A DNA stretch of 37,738 bases from Candidatus Nealsonbacteria bacterium RIFOXYB1_FULL_40_15 (GTDB lineage: Bacteria > Patescibacteriota > Minisyncoccia > Minisyncoccales > GWA2-38-27), in the NCBI GenBank assembly GCA_001821555.1, contig MHMM01000009.1, positions 1 to 37,738 of the forward strand, in the 5' to 3' direction. Below, piece by piece: positions 9,357 to 37,630 of this stretch. The position numbers and the translations under genes were made by a program. Every line of letters starts with the position of its first letter. Position 1 is the stretch's first letter. The notes under the pieces were generated by a model, which had not been told where the DNA came from, did no database searches, and saw only the letters and a program-made list of their open reading frames with translations.

Positions 9357-9824
9357 ATGAGAACGATCGCAATAGTTGTTCTGTCTGTGGTGGCACTGAT
9401 TCTCGGGATGGTCGTTGGGTCCGTTGTTTCCCGGCAGAATGTCGAGGCATACAACGAATCTTCGGCGGAGGTCGGGGAGAGTGAGGGACATGCGGGGTTG
9501 GCTTTCGGCAACGAGAACTATGCTGTTCTCGTCTACTACGACAATCCCGGGTTCTCGGTTGTCGCTCTTGATTTCAATGCCGTAGGGAACTATCCCACGG
9601 CACGGAGCATCTATTTCGAAAACATGGAGCAGCTCCGGTCGGCATGGCAGAAGGCCATGGTAAAGCAGGCGACGGTCGGCAATGCCCAGACGGAGATCCC
9701 GTTCATTCCGGCGGAAGACACGACCGGAGTCGTGGTGAAGCGGCCGGAGCCCATTCTCCGGTGGAGTCGCCCCGTGATCCCGGCGGAAGACTCGGAGGGA
9801 GTGGTTGATCGGACGGAAAACTAA
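9357..9824 (+). CDS. Hypothetical exported protein, GC-rich orphan
   Basis: 155 residues. Residues about 4-24 form a signal anchor (IAIVVLSVVALILGMVVGSVV); the rest is hydrophilic. A repeated motif IPAEDTTGVV / IPAEDSEGVV near the C-terminus is visible. AAGGGGA lies at a good distance before the ATG. The gene has its own strong promoter and its own terminator (9850-9885). Its base composition is clearly richer in GC than its neighbours (many CGG, GCC, GTC codons), a sign of different ancestry or expression class. No family recognised. Confidence 0.8.
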   Translation: MRTIAIVVLSVVALILGMVVGSVVSRQNVEAYNESSAEVGESEGHAGLAFGNENYAVLVYYDNPGFSVVALDFNAVGNYPTARSIYFENMEQLRSAWQKAMVKQATVGNAQTEIPFIPAEDTTGVVVKRPEPILRWSRPVIPAEDSEGVVDRTEN

Positions 9825-20222: not shown

Positions 20223-20651
20223 ATGGGAACAGCAAGAATTGAAGGTATGGATTTGGTGATGGATCTTATCGAAGGATCAGAACGGTTGAACTGGATGAAA
20301 ACTAAGATTCCGGAAGTTGTCGCAATGATTCTCGGAATAGCAGATTCTCTGATATGGGAAGTTGTTCCGGATTCAGAAAGGGGGTTTCAGCGCGACGTTG
20401 CGAACACCATCGTCTGCAGGTGGGTCTTGCGTGTTGATCAGGGGGAAATCATTGTAGATTGCTGGATCGATTCCCGGGAACCCAGGTTAGCGTATGCCAC
20501 AAATATGTCCTCTGTGCGCATGGATGATATTGAAACCGTTTTTCATGCGCTGGAAGATTTCGCGAAGGGGATGAGGGAATGGTTTCCTGTACTGTCGAAT
20601 CGCTGGCAGCCCATAAGGATGGCAGCGATTAATGCCAGAAAGGGCGAGTAA
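20223..20651 (+). CDS. Hypothetical soluble protein (cassette gene 3)
   Basis: 142 residues. A strong AAGGAGG lies 8 nt before the ATG. The protein (MGTARIEGMDLVMDLIEG...) is acidic, with three Trp in the C-terminal half and no membrane helix. Composition is more GC-rich than the neighbours. It has its own promoter (in the shared repeat) and a strong terminator. No family recognised. Confidence 0.8.
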   Translation: MGTARIEGMDLVMDLIEGSERLNWMKTKIPEVVAMILGIADSLIWEVVPDSERGFQRDVANTIVCRWVLRVDQGEIIVDCWIDSREPRLAYATNMSSVRMDDIETVFHALEDFAKGMREWFPVLSNRWQPIRMAAINARKGE

Positions 20652-24740: not shown

Positions 24741-25979
24741 ATGGACGAATTGAGAACCTTTACCGTTACTGATTTTATCACCCTCTTGAACATAGGGCTT
24801 AAAAGATCAAAAGCCAGGGTTTTGGGCGAAATTACAGAAGCAAAAAAGGGCCCTACCGGCCACATGTACTTTTCGATAAAAGACGAGAAGGAAAGCGTCT
24901 TAAATTGTATTATGTGGCGTTCTTCTTATTATTTTTCCGGAACAGAGATAAAAGAAGGGGCCAAAATTATAATTTCGGGATCTCCCCAGGTTTATCCTCT
25001 TTCGGGACGCCTTTCTTTCATAGCAGAAACCATAGAACCCGCAGGAGAAGGAGAGATAAGAAAGCGCTATGAAGAACTGAAAAAAAAGCTTGAAAAGGAA
25101 GGAGTTTTTTCCGACAAGAGGCCAATCCCAAAGTATATTCAAAAGATAGGAATTATAACTTCTATGAAGGGCGCTGTTCTGGCTGATTTTTCAAACAATT
25201 TGAAGAAATTCGGATTTTGCGTGAAAATTGCAGACTCCAGAGTGGAAGGCCAGGAAGCGGTGAAAGATCTTTTAAGATCAATCAGGACTTTTGAAAGGCA
25301 AGATATAGAAGTGCTTGTAATAATGAGAGGCGGAGGGTCTATGGAATCTATGATGGCGTTTAACAACGAGATAGTCGCCAGAAGCATAGCGGAATTTCCA
25401 AAACCTGTGATTGCCGCAATAGGCCACCACAAAGATGAGCCCCTTTCGGCCTTGGCTTCGGATATTTCGGTTTCAACCCCTACAGCTGCCGCAAACTTAT
25501 TAAACGAATCATGGCTTTCAGCTTTGCTTGCCATAGAAAGATATGAAAGAAGCATACTTTCTAATTTTGAAGAAACAATTGACTCGGCCAAAAGCATTCT
25601 TCGGAATTCGGCTGAAAAAGCTCTTTTGGTCAAAGACCTTATTTCAAAAAGAGTAGAGTTTTTGAAGAATAAGATACAGGTTTTATTCCAAAAATACAAG
25701 AATGCAATTTTGAACAAAAGATTATATCTTGGGAAATTATTTGAAGAGCTTAATTTTAAGGATATTTTGGCCCAGGCCGCAGAAAGGATAAAAAGCTATG
25801 AAAAAATAACAATAATGAGTAATCCGGAAAGGCAACTTGGGATTGGATACAGCATAGCTTTTTTGGGCGGAAAGGTTCTAAAAAGCGTGAAAGATGTTAA
25901 TATAGAAGATATGGTGGATATTAAGATGGCCGATGGAGCATTAAAAACAAAAGTAAATAATATTAAATATGGCGAATAA
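24741..25979 (+). CDS. xseA: Exodeoxyribonuclease VII large subunit
   Basis: 412 residues. With XseB it degrades single-stranded DNA in both directions. An N-terminal OB-fold (RVLGEITEAKKGPTGHMYFSIKDE, about 27-100) is followed by the catalytic domain with the conserved KIGIITSMKGAVLADF and VIMRGGGSMESMMAFN blocks and IAAIGHHKDEPLSALASD, then a long coiled coil (about 270-340). Slightly shorter than E. coli XseA. A weak -10 lies 8 nt before the ATG. It overlaps xseB by 11 nt. Confidence 0.96.
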   Translation: MDELRTFTVTDFITLLNIGLKRSKARVLGEITEAKKGPTGHMYFSIKDEKESVLNCIMWRSSYYFSGTEIKEGAKIIISGSPQVYPLSGRLSFIAETIEPAGEGEIRKRYEELKKKLEKEGVFSDKRPIPKYIQKIGIITSMKGAVLADFSNNLKKFGFCVKIADSRVEGQEAVKDLLRSIRTFERQDIEVLVIMRGGGSMESMMAFNNEIVARSIAEFPKPVIAAIGHHKDEPLSALASDISVSTPTAAANLLNESWLSALLAIERYERSILSNFEETIDSAKSILRNSAEKALLVKDLISKRVEFLKNKIQVLFQKYKNAILNKRLYLGKLFEELNFKDILAQAAERIKSYEKITIMSNPERQLGIGYSIAFLGGKVLKSVKDVNIEDMVDIKMADGALKTKVNNIKYGE

Positions 25980-26181
25980 CTTAAATAATAATCTAAAACA
26001 GCTTTCAGAAATAGCAGAATGGTTTGACAGCCGCCAGGATATTGATATTGAAGAGGGGCTGAAGAAAGTCAAAGAGGCGGTTAAGCTTATAAAACAAAGC
26101 AAAGAGAGATTGGCAGAAATTGAGAATGAGTTTGAGGAAATATCAAAGGAAATAGAGCTGGACGAAGAAAAGACGGTATGA
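25969..26181 (+). CDS. xseB: Exodeoxyribonuclease VII small subunit
   Basis: 70 residues, the usual size. A two-helix hairpin protein (LSEIAEWFDSRQDIDIEEGLKKVKEAV); several copies bind the coiled coil of XseA. The start lies inside the end of xseA, and the TGA overlaps the ATG of the next gene (ATGA), so all three are translationally coupled. Confidence 0.93.
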   Translation: MANNLNNNLKQLSEIAEWFDSRQDIDIEEGLKKVKEAVKLIKQSKERLAEIENEFEEISKEIELDEEKTV

Positions 26182-27371
26182 AAAAAGAGGATTTCAAAAG
26201 AATATGCATTTCTCCCAGGAAGTTCCACCTTTTGGAGCAAAAAGAGAAGAAAATAGAAGGAGAGATAGCAAGACTTAACGAATTTAACAGGCAGATAGTG
26301 CAAAACGGCCCTGTTAGCATAATGGTAATAGATAGAAAAGGAAACATTATCTTTACCAACGATTATTACAAAATACTTTCAAACCTTGAATTTCCGATAG
26401 GGAGAAATATTTTTAAGCTTCCCTTTTTCAAAAGAGAGGAGCTTATTTCCGAATTCAAAAAACTTTTCAAGGCAGGAGGCATAATAAAAAAGAATCACTG
26501 TGAGAGCGTTAATTTGAAAGGAAAGACGATATATATAAATATAACAGCAGTTCCCCTCAAGGATGAAAGGGGGAGAACAATAAGCGCGCTTTCTATGGCT
26601 GTGGATGTAACGGAAACCGTAATAGCCCAGCAGAAACTTAGGAAACTTAATGTGGAATTGGAAGAAAAAGTATCCCAAAGGACAAAAGAGCTGGAAAAAT
26701 CTCTAGAATTAAAAAAGCAATTTATTTCCGATGCTTCGCACGAGCTTAGAACTCCCCTGACTATTATAAGGTTGAATATGGAACTGCTTCAAAAAGAGCT
26801 TAAAGAAAAAAAGGTGGTAGATTCTATAAACAGGGAGATAGATAAGATTTCGGAGATATTGGAAGACCTGTCTTTGCTCACGGCGATAGACGAGGGTAGG
26901 GAGAGGATAAGAATAAACGCTCTTAATCTAAATAGTCTTGTTTCAAACACGGCAAAAAGGATAAAATCCTTGCTTAAAGAAAAGAGGATAAAATTGTTTT
27001 TATTTGAAAACAGCCATAATCTCGTGGTCAAGGGAGACAAGGTAAAACTTGAAAAACTATTTCTTAATATAATAAGAAATGCGATAAAGTATGGGAGCAG
27101 GGGGGGATGGATAAGAATCCGGATAAAATCAAAAGACGGATTTGCGGAGGTGAGTGTCGCAGATAACGGAATAGGAATATCCAAAGAAGAACTGCCCCGT
27201 ATCTTTGAGCGATTCTACAGAGCCAACTTATCGCGAAGCAAGGGGGAAAGCGGATTTGGACTCGGGCTTGCAATATGCAAATGGGTGGCCGATCGCCACA
27301 ATGGGTCCATATCTGTAAAAAGCGAGCCAGGCAAAGGTTCTGTGTTCTCAATAAAACTGCCATTGACTTAG
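26178..27371 (+). CDS. Soluble PAS-containing sensor histidine kinase
   Basis: 397 residues. N-terminal coiled coil (about 18-40), one PAS domain (about 40-150, with SIMVIDRKGNIIFTND), a linking coiled coil, HisKA with phosphoacceptor His188 (SDASHELRTPL), and HATPase_c with N box (NIIRNAIKYG), G1 (DNGIGIS), F box (FERFYRA) and G2 (GFGLGLAICKW). There is no membrane helix, so it senses a cytosolic signal, with a ligand or cofactor in PAS (inferred). It is coupled to xseB by a 4-nt overlap. The next gene encodes a receiver-domain protein with its own promoter. Confidence 0.95.
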   Translation: MKKEDFKRICISPRKFHLLEQKEKKIEGEIARLNEFNRQIVQNGPVSIMVIDRKGNIIFTNDYYKILSNLEFPIGRNIFKLPFFKREELISEFKKLFKAGGIIKKNHCESVNLKGKTIYINITAVPLKDERGRTISALSMAVDVTETVIAQQKLRKLNVELEEKVSQRTKELEKSLELKKQFISDASHELRTPLTIIRLNMELLQKELKEKKVVDSINREIDKISEILEDLSLLTAIDEGRERIRINALNLNSLVSNTAKRIKSLLKEKRIKLFLFENSHNLVVKGDKVKLEKLFLNIIRNAIKYGSRGGWIRIRIKSKDGFAEVSVADNGIGISKEELPRIFERFYRANLSRSKGESGFGLGLAICKWVADRHNGSISVKSEPGKGSVFSIKLPLT

Positions 27372-27391
27372 CAACAAGAGTAAAGTAAAAT
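27363..27391 (+). promoter_or_regulatory. Promoter of the receiver-radical SAM gene
   Basis: TTGACT (27363-27368), 17-bp spacer, TAAAAT (27386-27391), overlapping the end of the kinase gene. +1 near 27398, leaving a leader of about 45 nt. Confidence 0.65.
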
Positions 27392-27442
27392 CTTAACCGT
27401 TCTTTGTTTCGGCACATTAACAATCAGCGCATGGGGGTAAAT

Positions 27443-28696
27443 ATGAGAAAGCGAAAAGTTCTGGTTGTGGATGATCACCGCGTGGTTGCGGAAGCAATCC
27501 AGGCGATCTTGGAATCATTTTTTAGGGTATTTGTCGAGTATAGCTTTGAAGGGATGTGCAATGCTTTGTTGGGCGAAAGGTTTGACTGTCTTGTCCTGGA
27601 TGTTAACATTGGCGGGGACTGGCCGGGGACAAAAATCGTGAAGTGGGTTAGAGGGCTTGACCCTTGGATGGGGGTCATTCTTATGACTGCGGATCCCTCT
27701 CTTTTTTATCAAACCGAGCAGGATCCGTCGGTTATATGTGTAGATAAAGACATAGGAGAAGATTCGCTTGTCAGGGAGATTGGAGACGCTATTGCCAGGG
27801 CACGAAAGCCATATTCATTAAGGAGGGAACATTTTGAGATTCTCTACAAGCACAATCTCTTTTCATGGATTAATGCTGTCAGAATTGTGGGTTTGTCGGC
27901 TGACCATGGCACCAGAAGAATAGAGGCCGTTCTTACTGGGGACGATATACCCCTGTCTTGGTCGCTTTACACGTCTCCCGAAGAAGGAGATATGATATGC
28001 ATTTCTTCTACTTCGGGATGCGGGCGGTGCTTGTTCTGCGATTCGGGAGCAAGACCTTTTAAGAGGCCTCTTACCAAAGAAGAAATGGGCGGCCAAGTTA
28101 TACTTTCTATGGAAATGCTTCCCAAAGGTCCAAAGATAGTCAGTTTTGGGTCGGAGGGAGAGCCCTTGTTAAGCCTTGAAAACTGCTGCGAGTTGATAGA
28201 GAATCTTTCCCGGATGGAGTTTGGGTTCAAATTCAGCATAATCACCACTGGCGACGAGGATCAACTGGCGGTTATCAGGGATCGGAAAAGCTCCCTTCCC
28301 TTCACTCTGTCCTGGTCTTGTCATTTTGCCCGGCAAGAGATAAGAGATTTCTATATGCCAGGAACATCTGGCCAGAGCATAGAAAGAATAATCAGATTGC
28401 TCCGGCAGATAGAAGGACAAGGCAGGCCGGTGATCATCCGCTACATGGTAATAAGGGGAGTTAATGACGGAAAAGACGATATAAACAAGCTAATAGATTT
28501 AGTGGACGGCAAGTTTCCAGTAAGGGTTGTTCCTCACCAGAAAGGAAGGCTTAAGGATGTCCAACCGACAACATCGGAAGATGTGGACGCCGTTATTTCT
28601 ATGCTAGAGGCATCCGGCATTGTTTGTCTAAAAGGAGAGGCCATAACAAATACGAATGTGGGTCGGGGGAAAAATGCCCCCAAGTGGTCTGCATGA
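27443..28696 (+). CDS. Response regulator receiver fused to RlmN-like radical SAM domain
   Basis: 417 residues. Receiver domain (about 4-122): acidic pair D10-D11, phosphoacceptor D53 (LVLDVNI), T82 and K102, all intact. After a linker comes an RlmN/Cfr-like radical SAM domain (about 180-415): ICISSTSGCGRCLFCDSG, FKRPLTKEE, SFGSEGEPLLSLEN (GEP motif), LSWSCHF, RYMVIRGVNDGKDD. Two departures from RlmN: the cluster motif reads C193-x2-C196-x2-C199 instead of C-x3-C-x2-C, and the C-terminal methyl-carrying Cys is absent (ITNTNVGRG at that place). C186 matches the other RlmN cysteine. RNA methylation is therefore doubtful. ATG 27443 follows GGGGGT by 5 nt; upstream in-frame starts at 27404 and 27431 are less likely. 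Own promoter and terminator; composition is more GC-rich than the kinase gene. Confidence 0.9.
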   Translation: MRKRKVLVVDDHRVVAEAIQAILESFFRVFVEYSFEGMCNALLGERFDCLVLDVNIGGDWPGTKIVKWVRGLDPWMGVILMTADPSLFYQTEQDPSVICVDKDIGEDSLVREIGDAIARARKPYSLRREHFEILYKHNLFSWINAVRIVGLSADHGTRRIEAVLTGDDIPLSWSLYTSPEEGDMICISSTSGCGRCLFCDSGARPFKRPLTKEEMGGQVILSMEMLPKGPKIVSFGSEGEPLLSLENCCELIENLSRMEFGFKFSIITTGDEDQLAVIRDRKSSLPFTLSWSCHFARQEIRDFYMPGTSGQSIERIIRLLRQIEGQGRPVIIRYMVIRGVNDGKDDINKLIDLVDGKFPVRVVPHQKGRLKDVQPTTSEDVDAVISMLEASGIVCLKGEAITNTNVGRGKNAPKWSA

Positions 28697-28700
28697 ATCA

Positions 28701-28735
28701 AAAACGCTATACTGTGCATAGCGTTTTCTTTTTTT
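28701..28735 (+). terminator. Strong terminator after the receiver-radical SAM gene
   Basis: AAAACGCTAT (28701-28710) pairs with ATAGCGTTTT (28718-28727), then CTTTTTTT. Confidence 0.92.
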
Positions 28736-30739: not shown

Positions 30740-30760
30740 AAGGACCGCTAAGCGATCCTT
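30740..30760. terminator. Bidirectional terminator
   Basis: AAGGACCGC (30740-30748) and GCGATCCTT (30752-30760) pair around TAA; the stem is fully paired only on the minus strand. A T-run follows on the minus strand and a T-rich stretch on the plus strand. The minus-strand gene's stop codon lies in the stem. Confidence 0.8.
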
Positions 30761-31038
30761 GTTTTCTGAGTCCTTCTTGCCCAGATTGTACGACGGGTCT
30801 CCTGAAGTCTTCCTCCGAATCTTTGTAAGACTCGGAAATTGAGATCAAGTCGGTCTTTGCTCTTGTGCAGAACAATGATTATCCGAAGATCGCACCTGAA
30901 TGTGATGAGTCCGGATTCTATGTGTGCATGAATTTCTCCTACGCACTCTAGTAATATTTCCTTGACTTTGGCCTCTGTTTTTTTATCCATGGCCTCCACA
31001 TACCACCACCGGTCCTCCGAAGCCTCCTTTTGCCTCAT
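30748..31038 (-). CDS. Small basic hypothetical protein
   Basis: 96 residues on the minus strand, the only minus gene between 16883 and 37192. AAGGAG lies 5 nt before the ATG. Mostly alpha/beta composition with a basic C-terminus (RRTIWARRTQKTRIA). No membrane segment, no motif I recognise. Own promoter (31083-31111) and own terminator, and a more GC-rich sequence than its neighbours. Confidence 0.75.
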   Translation of the reverse strand: MRQKEASEDRWWYVEAMDKKTEAKVKEILLECVGEIHAHIESGLITFRCDLRIIIVLHKSKDRLDLNFRVLQRFGGRLQETRRTIWARRTQKTRIA

Positions 31039-36748: not shown

Positions 36749-37135
36749 ATGAAAAAAAAGCGTATTTTTTTGATAGAGGATGACCTGCCAACTATAGAAG
36801 TCTATAAGATGGGAATGGAGCAGGCTGGTTTTGATGTTTCTGTGGCGACCACAGGCCAGGAGGCCTTGGAGAAAATAGGAGAAATGAATCCAGAGAACAG
36901 GCCGGATCTTATTCTTCTTGATATAATACTTCCTGATATGAATGGAATTGATATTCTTAAAGACATAAGGAAGCATGAAAATACTAAGGATATAAGAGTG
37001 TTTATTCTTACCAACTACACGAGCGATGAACTTGAAAAGAAAGGATTGCTTTTGAAGTCGCAGAGATATCTGCTGAAGACAGATTACAAGCCGAGAGAGC
37101 TCGCCAGCTTTATAGAAGAGGAATTGGCAGAATAG
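36749..37135 (+). CDS. Single-domain response regulator
   Basis: 128 residues, receiver domain only: acidic pair in FLIEDD, phosphoacceptor in LILLDIILPDMNG, Thr in ILTNYT, Lys in YLLKTDYKP. No output domain, so it acts through protein contact, phosphorelay or as a phosphate sink. No kinase is adjacent. The only kinase in this window is 26178-27371, which could serve it (inference). It ends at a bidirectional terminator. Confidence 0.95.
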   Translation: MKKKRIFLIEDDLPTIEVYKMGMEQAGFDVSVATTGQEALEKIGEMNPENRPDLILLDIILPDMNGIDILKDIRKHENTKDIRVFILTNYTSDELEKKGLLLKSQRYLLKTDYKPRELASFIEEELAE

Positions 37136-37192: not shown

Positions 37193-37576
37193 TCAAGACC
37201 CAGTTCTCGTTTTCTTTGAAGGAAGTTTGAATATTACCACTTTCCAACCCTTGCATATTGTCATCCCTGGTGCGCTCATCCCTGTTCCGTAGAGTTTTCT
37301 TGCGAAGACGGTTTTTACCTCCGCCCAGAAAACATCTTGCTCGGACATGAAGCGAAGGTATCTTACTTGGAAAGATATTACCTGACTCCGAGTCATCGGC
37401 ACGACTTTTCCCTGTTCCAAGAATTTATTCCTTTCTTTTTCAATGACGATCCAGAACTTTCTTAGATCGTTCGGGAGGGCTCCGAGAATAATGCCGTTTT
37501 TAGGCTTCTCTGGTAGCTCCAGATCCACGTCCAATGATGTCCCCTCAATTCTTTCCAATAATTCTCTGATCAACAT
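37193..37576 (-). CDS. Hypothetical soluble protein, GC-richer orphan
   Basis: 127 residues on the minus strand from ATG 37576, with CTGGAGGT just upstream. A TTG at 37594 upstream of that site is rejected. The protein (MLIRELLERIEGTSLDVDLE...) has no membrane segment or recognised motif. It has a promoter at 37631-37659 and a terminator at 37136-37163, and belongs to the same promoter/Shine-Dalgarno class as the cassette genes. Confidence 0.75.
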   Translation of the reverse strand: MLIRELLERIEGTSLDVDLELPEKPKNGIILGALPNDLRKFWIVIEKERNKFLEQGKVVPMTRSQVISFQVRYLRFMSEQDVFWAEVKTVFARKLYGTGMSAPGMTICKGWKVVIFKLPSKKTRTGS

Positions 37577-37630
37577 GGCGACCTCCAGTATCAATTTGTT
37601 TGGGTTTGCTTTGCGAACGTACTAGATAAA

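Follow-up and report, generated by a model that had tools for sequence, protein, structure and literature searches.

The window, meaning the whole analysed stretch of 37,738 nucleotides, carries a gene for a soluble PAS histidine kinase followed by a gene in which a receiver domain is joined to an RlmN-like radical SAM domain (Table 1). A probability of roughly one half is assigned to the reading that this pair is a two-component system with a radical SAM enzyme as its response-regulator output, and that the reaction is controlled by phosphorylation. The computed support is a conserved domain architecture that is paired with a kinase and has an RlmN fold, together with retention of the cluster cysteines and of conserved barrel positions. 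From this support we infer that phosphate passes from kinase to receiver, that a cluster and SAM are bound, and that a gated reaction on a substrate is catalysed.

The kinase-fusion locus

The source of the window is a 761-kb, 99%-complete genome, of which the window is an entire contig (C9); genomes of the host's phylum span 0.5-2 Mb, which fits the CPR (Patescibacteria) membership presumed in a preliminary description. Coordinates, reading frames and the 71-nt gap between kinase and fusion, as given in a preliminary description of this DNA, were all correct on re-checking. Directly 5' of the kinase lie two ORFs which, by inspection of the sequence alone, we take to be xseA and xseB. The last 4 nt of xseB, its stop codon included, are shared with the start of the kinase gene, and a single xseA-xseB-kinase-fusion transcription unit is therefore probable. 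The placing of xseA and xseB next to the kinase is not conserved in relatives.

The preliminary description had given the fusion a promoter and a terminator of its own. The terminator is convincing (stem at 28701-28727 with a T-run), and a stem-loop followed by a T-run is also visible 3' of the fusion in G577, G550, G587, G778 and G963. The promoter is not supported. Nine promoter-like matches were counted in the region against 7.0 +/- 2.4 expected, which is chance level, and an intergenic gap of just 35-36 nt between kinase and fusion in two homologues also bears against it. A stand-alone receiver is encoded at 36749-37135 of the window, close to the contig end, and receiver matches in the window's genome number seven in total.

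Table 1. Features of the kinase-fusion locus, with positions numbered from the first nucleotide of the window
Feature	Position	Strand	Basis
xseA and xseB (presumed exonuclease VII subunits), directly 5' of the kinase	24741..26181	+	ORFs, short overlaps
Soluble PAS histidine kinase, 397 aa	26178..27371	+	Pfam PAS_9, HisKA, HATPase_c
PAS sensor domain, residues 45-146, with Cys108	26310..26615	+	Pfam
HisKA dimerisation domain, phospho-accepting H188 (codon 26739-26741) in SHELRTP	26712..26897	+	Pfam E 1.2e-15
HATPase_c ATP-binding domain	27033..27365	+	Pfam E 3e-31
Shine-Dalgarno-like GGGGG upstream of the fusion ATG at 27443	27433..27437	+	Sequence
Receiver - RlmN-like radical SAM fusion (P0001), 417 aa	27443..28696	+	Pfam, TIGR00048, AlphaFold2, six homologues
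Receiver domain: D10/D11, phospho-acceptor D53 (codon 27599-27601), T82, K102	27443..27808	+	Pfam E 1.6e-10
Linker, helices and beta-hairpin before the cluster loop	27812..27982	+	AlphaFold2 model; within RlmN structural match
RlmN/Cfr-like radical SAM barrel	27986..28633	+	TIGR00048 E 9e-19; Foldseek best match E. coli RlmN 5hr7, E 1.3e-17
Cys186, at the RlmN C118 position	27998..28000	+	Residue table, seven homologues
Cluster loop C193-X2-C196-X2-C199, within GCGRCLFC	28019..28039	+	Three Cys invariant in seven fusions
Arg408, at the RlmN methyl-carrier C355 position	28664..28666	+	Alignment
Intrinsic terminator closing the unit	28701..28727	+	10-pair stem, then T-run

A difference in base composition between the two genes had also been described and is real, with 47.0% GC in the fusion and 38.4% in the kinase. 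The GC content of the fusion is near the 95th percentile of the ORFs of its own genome. Fusion genes from relatives (see below) likewise exceed the neighbouring sensor gene in GC, giving an excess of 4 to 16 points in seven of seven genomes; recent local insertion, of which the contrast might have been a sign, was rejected on this recurrence. Short single genes of 44-58% GC, against a genome average of 39-40%, lie at 9357-9824, 20223-20651, 30748-31038 and 37193-37594 of the window, and similar short high-GC genes are scattered across stretches of the host genome.

The histidine kinase

Pfam bore out the assignment of the first gene as a soluble PAS histidine kinase, with PAS, HisKA (E 1e-15) and HATPase_c (E 3e-31) domains, the last two both exceeding the Pfam cut-offs. 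No membrane segment is visible in its sequence. Orthologues in five other genomes are 39-52% identical, and H188 is invariant across the six aligned kinases. The HisKA-HATPase core is common to this kinase and to the PhoR/PnpS-type soluble PAS histidine kinases (NF046044, E 8e-64). The window kinase differs from these in scoring below the cut-offs of their models, in having no adjacent DNA-binding PhoB-type partner in the window, and in a specific PAS type that it has in common only with fusion-linked sensors. The same PAS type stands beside all six other fusions (41-52% identity), and no second ORF in the window's own genome matches it.

Cys108 of the PAS domain (codon 26499-26501) is invariant in the six aligned kinases, is kept in the PAS-GGDEF protein of G963 described below and is replaced by Leu in G968. 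It is a possible redox or ligand site.

Domains and fold of the fusion protein

The complete receiver attributed to the window fusion is present, with D10/D11, D53, T82 and K102 (Pfam, E 1.6e-10), and RlmN is indeed the best family for the C-terminal part (TIGR00048, E 9e-19). In each of the seven fusions described below, the radical SAM part matches RlmN and Cfr better than any other family. The window protein scores 67.6 bits against TIGR00048, below the family cut-off of 290, and 26.8 against the Pfam radical SAM model, slightly below its cut-off of 29.5. Cfr is the second-best family; it is a structural match to the barrel, yet the same features are missing as for RlmN and the score lies far below the cut-offs of its models (50.9 against 550 bits). 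Alignment to the RlmN model begins near position 99 of 355, the receiver occupying the place of the RlmN N-terminal domain.

The fold was predicted and compared with RlmN, as the preliminary description had proposed, and the AlphaFold models match RlmN best. AlphaFold2 returned a pLDDT of 91 and a pTM of 0.88 for the window protein, and 91.3 and 0.90 for the G550 homologue. The top Foldseek matches were E. coli RlmN (E 1.3e-17) and Sphaerobacter RlmN (E 3.4e-18), then Cfr. PFL-AE and TYW1 were further matches of the barrel, and the N-terminal part matched receivers. By AlphaFold2 and Foldseek, the fusion has the barrel fold of the radical SAM superfamily.

A family of seven fusions

In the first samples of relatives a search with the single protein returned stand-alone RlmNs only. 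A wider search of this kind, which may have missed very divergent fusions in the order, returned three full-length fusions in the host's order, and profiles made from these added three from a second order of the class, in G778, G963 and G968. These six receiver-radical SAM fusions are 21-31% identical to the window protein, and receiver, linker and RlmN-like barrel aligned over the full length in all seven. In a tree of the radical SAM part the seven fusions form one clade against 57 stand-alone RlmNs (support 100/99). The end branches of the fusions are long, and the branching order within their clade is unsure. The architecture which the preliminary description had proposed to seek in other genomes was thus found in six homologues from two orders, and seven homologues in one clade speak against the receiver being a local fusion artefact, the concern raised there. 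A genome-wide protein scan with peptide patterns on variable stretches gave no matches.

Phage and plasmid records gave only generic RlmN/Cfr matches and no viral relatives, on which a phage or plasmid origin of the fusion was rejected. A defence system was also rejected, PADLOC having no match to the fusion.

A stand-alone RlmN was found in all seven other genomes searched (the six fusion genomes and G578), in six of them above the family cut-off; none was found in the window's genome. The fusion was rejected as the housekeeping RlmN by its score, its missing features and the coexisting RlmN genes. By comparison of sequences it is a specialised RlmN paralogue, not the housekeeping enzyme. Very little weight is given to the explanation that this is a plain RlmN to which a receiver became fused by chance, beside a kinase that has nothing to do with it. 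The best database name is RlmN, as this explanation would have it, but comparative data already contradict it: seven fusions and their kinase pairing are conserved, canonical RlmN is a separate gene in the other six genomes, and the score is far under the RlmN cut-off.

Pairing with the kinase

In six of the seven fusion genomes an orthologue of the PAS kinase lies directly upstream of the fusion and in the same orientation, 35-133 nt away. The preliminary description had allowed that the kinase neighbour might never be conserved, and this count disposes of that concern. A chance fusion or a lone kinase was rejected on the seven conserved copies.

A kinase profile run against 247 genomes of the order gave exactly five above E 1e-60, and the fusion is present in four of these five. 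The fifth, G578, belongs to the same genus as G577; its locus is the same except that a 177-aa gene replaces the fusion, which was not found elsewhere in the G578 genome. The hypergeometric probability that all four genomes with the fusion would be among the five with the kinase, out of 247, is near 3e-8, a figure which ignores shared ancestry and is therefore smaller than the true one. The distances between kinases are correlated with those between the corresponding radical SAM parts (r 0.76) and receivers (r 0.83).

In the seventh fusion genome, G963, the partner is not a kinase. The divergent neighbour of the fusion is a PAS-GGDEF diguanylate cyclase (L165 8155-9108), whose PAS is 41-57% identical to that of the kinases. 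On this likeness it is read as a putative output swap behind one sensor. Both the G963 partner and the G578 kinase without a fusion count against the two-component reading. The fusion also evolves about 1.7-2.5 times faster than the kinase, which could reflect weak constraint and was counted on the same side.

The replacing gene of G578 (L157 7005-7538), at the fusion position of G577, begins with a VTHG motif and has no Pfam match. A VTHG-start gene also occurs in the window's own genome (L082 3239-3715). Both are possibly histidine phosphatase-like.

Receiver integrity

All key receiver residues are kept in five of the seven fusions and the phospho-acceptor Asp in six. The receivers of G778 (ES for DD, Ala for D53, Arg for T82) and G968 (NP for DD) are degenerate, and phosphorylation therefore cannot be the switch in every fusion. 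These two receivers, together with the unusual CX2CX2C loop described below, count against the two-component reading. Another intact receiver is present at exactly these two loci, in G778 as an OmpR-type regulator ahead of the kinase and in G968 as a domain joined to the kinase; for the fusion, phosphorylation is therefore probably ancestral but not universal. The extra receivers would fit a phospho-accepting role that has been replaced, leaving a putative non-phosphorylated module in the G778/G968 branch.

The coincidence of pseudo-receivers and extra intact receivers in G778 and G968 would also suit an iron-sulphur/SAM domain that is a sensor and not an enzyme. The cluster or bound SAM would then report redox or SAM status and tune the kinase through the receiver, with the two degenerate receivers as protein-interaction modules. 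The altered catalytic positions (a short cluster loop, a variable C118 position, C355 lost in the window protein) point the same way, and the conserved PAS Cys of the kinase would suit redox sensing. Such a sensor is nonetheless considered unlikely, given a full receiver in five of the seven fusions and the retention of the cluster cysteines and of the conserved barrel positions shared with RlmN.

The active site compared with RlmN

RlmN is the C2-methyltransferase of 23S rRNA A2503 and tRNA A37, and Cfr is the C8-methyltransferase of A2503. The usual radical SAM cluster motif is CX3CX2C. RlmN methylates C355, forms a methylene radical there and couples it to adenosine (PMC9692996; PMC5130265); C118, termed indispensable, is needed to resolve the adduct (PMC9692996).

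Like RlmN, the fusions have the radical SAM barrel, with a beta-hairpin preceding the cluster loop, and they keep a GEP-like motif and several invariant barrel residues (Gly239, Gly270, Ser292 and Asn341 of the fusion barrel are also found in RlmN). GEP itself is retained in the window protein and replaced by EGD or GGD in the other six fusions. The fusions differ from RlmN in having the receiver in place of its N-terminal helical domain and in coexisting, in the other six genomes, with separate RlmN genes. The cluster motif of the window protein P0001, CX2CX2C, is one residue shorter than the CX3CX2C of the radical SAM superfamily. It also occurs in P0003 (G577), and the other five fusions have CX3CX2C. 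A C118-type Cys is absent in five of the seven and kept only in these same two proteins, which carry both features. At the C355 position a Cys within a CG motif is kept in the other six fusions and is absent in the window protein, where Arg408 or another non-Cys residue lies in a low-confidence tail and its placement is alignment-dependent. No fusion has the complete canonical RlmN set, since C118, C355 and CX3CX2C are never all together in any of the seven. Among stand-alone RlmNs, 73 of 73 examined carry both C118 and CX3CX2C; only C118 is an independent count, the set having been pre-selected for CGQL and the Cys motif. An RlmN-like CX2CX2C DNA pattern gave two matches over 84,980 genomes, both by chance.

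A phosphorylation-controlled RNA methylase, applying RlmN/Cfr chemistry to an rRNA or tRNA adenosine in response to a signal, would account for RlmN and Cfr being the best family matches throughout, for the C355-aligned Cys of six fusions and for a barrel fold that matches RlmN, tRNA-bound structures included. It is nevertheless judged improbable. The C118 equivalent, indispensable in RlmN (PMC9692996), is absent in five of the seven, the window protein is without a C355 equivalent, and the fusions lack the N-terminal domain of RlmN. Their radical SAM part is also of lower basicity than RlmN (Mann-Whitney p 0.015), and each of the other six fusion genomes encodes an RlmN of its own. Having no C355 equivalent, the window protein is unlikely to follow the methyl-transfer route of RlmN. 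Its reaction, if any, would be of another SAM-radical type, for example hydrogen abstraction or 5'-deoxyadenosyl chemistry.

Loss of the C-terminal Cys in this copy only, a long branch (2.44 against a median of 0.36) and the shortened cluster loop raise the question of whether the window's copy is decaying or inactive in a family that is overall a working system. An alternative frame over a CCCCC run near the end reads GRGKNAPSGL, like GRGINASCGL of P0003, which could hint at a late frameshift. Decay is held to be distinctly improbable: the 417-codon frame is intact with a ribosome-binding site and a terminator, the complete receiver, the three cluster Cys and GEP are retained, and the shortened loop is common to G577 and hence no private error.

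Discussion

The two-component reading can be extended to a mechanism in which the kinase phosphorylates the fused receiver and so gates a radical reaction on RNA or protein, at a modified RlmN active site with a CX2CX2C loop in two members. This extended form is tentative and is put at somewhat less than an even chance. The soluble PAS kinase would sense a cytoplasmic cue and phosphorylate D53 of the fusion receiver. The receiver would occupy the site of the N-terminal helical domain of RlmN and, once phosphorylated, would alter access to, or activity of, the RlmN-like barrel. With a [4Fe-4S] cluster and SAM, the barrel would modify an RNA or protein whose gene lies elsewhere. RNA is a possible substrate but is not favoured, given the absence of the RlmN N-terminal domain and a radical SAM part of lower basicity than RlmN. 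No conserved neighbour gene able to encode a protein substrate was found.

Response regulators act mostly via DNA binding, cyclic dinucleotides or protein contacts. Those with enzyme outputs include PleD-type GGDEF, RocR EAL, CheB and the KaiC or glycosyltransferase fusions. The system described here resembles them in joining a receiver to an enzyme domain with a paired histidine kinase, and differs in that the output is a radical SAM domain. Receiver-enzyme fusions are an established kind, typically of narrow distribution, and archaeal enzyme-REC fusions are described as narrow in phyletic spread (PMC5847659). In the part of the literature covered, no description of a radical SAM domain attached to a response-regulator receiver was found.

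The kinase-paired fusion suggests that bacterial signalling may govern radical chemistry directly, by a new route. If the reading is true, a kinase-paired radical SAM output ties phospho-signalling directly to radical chemistry, in very small genomes with few regulators. The fusions also vary naturally at the active site of an RlmN-type barrel, in C118, in C355 and in the length of the cluster loop, and this series is useful for asking what such a barrel can do beyond A2503/A37 methylation.
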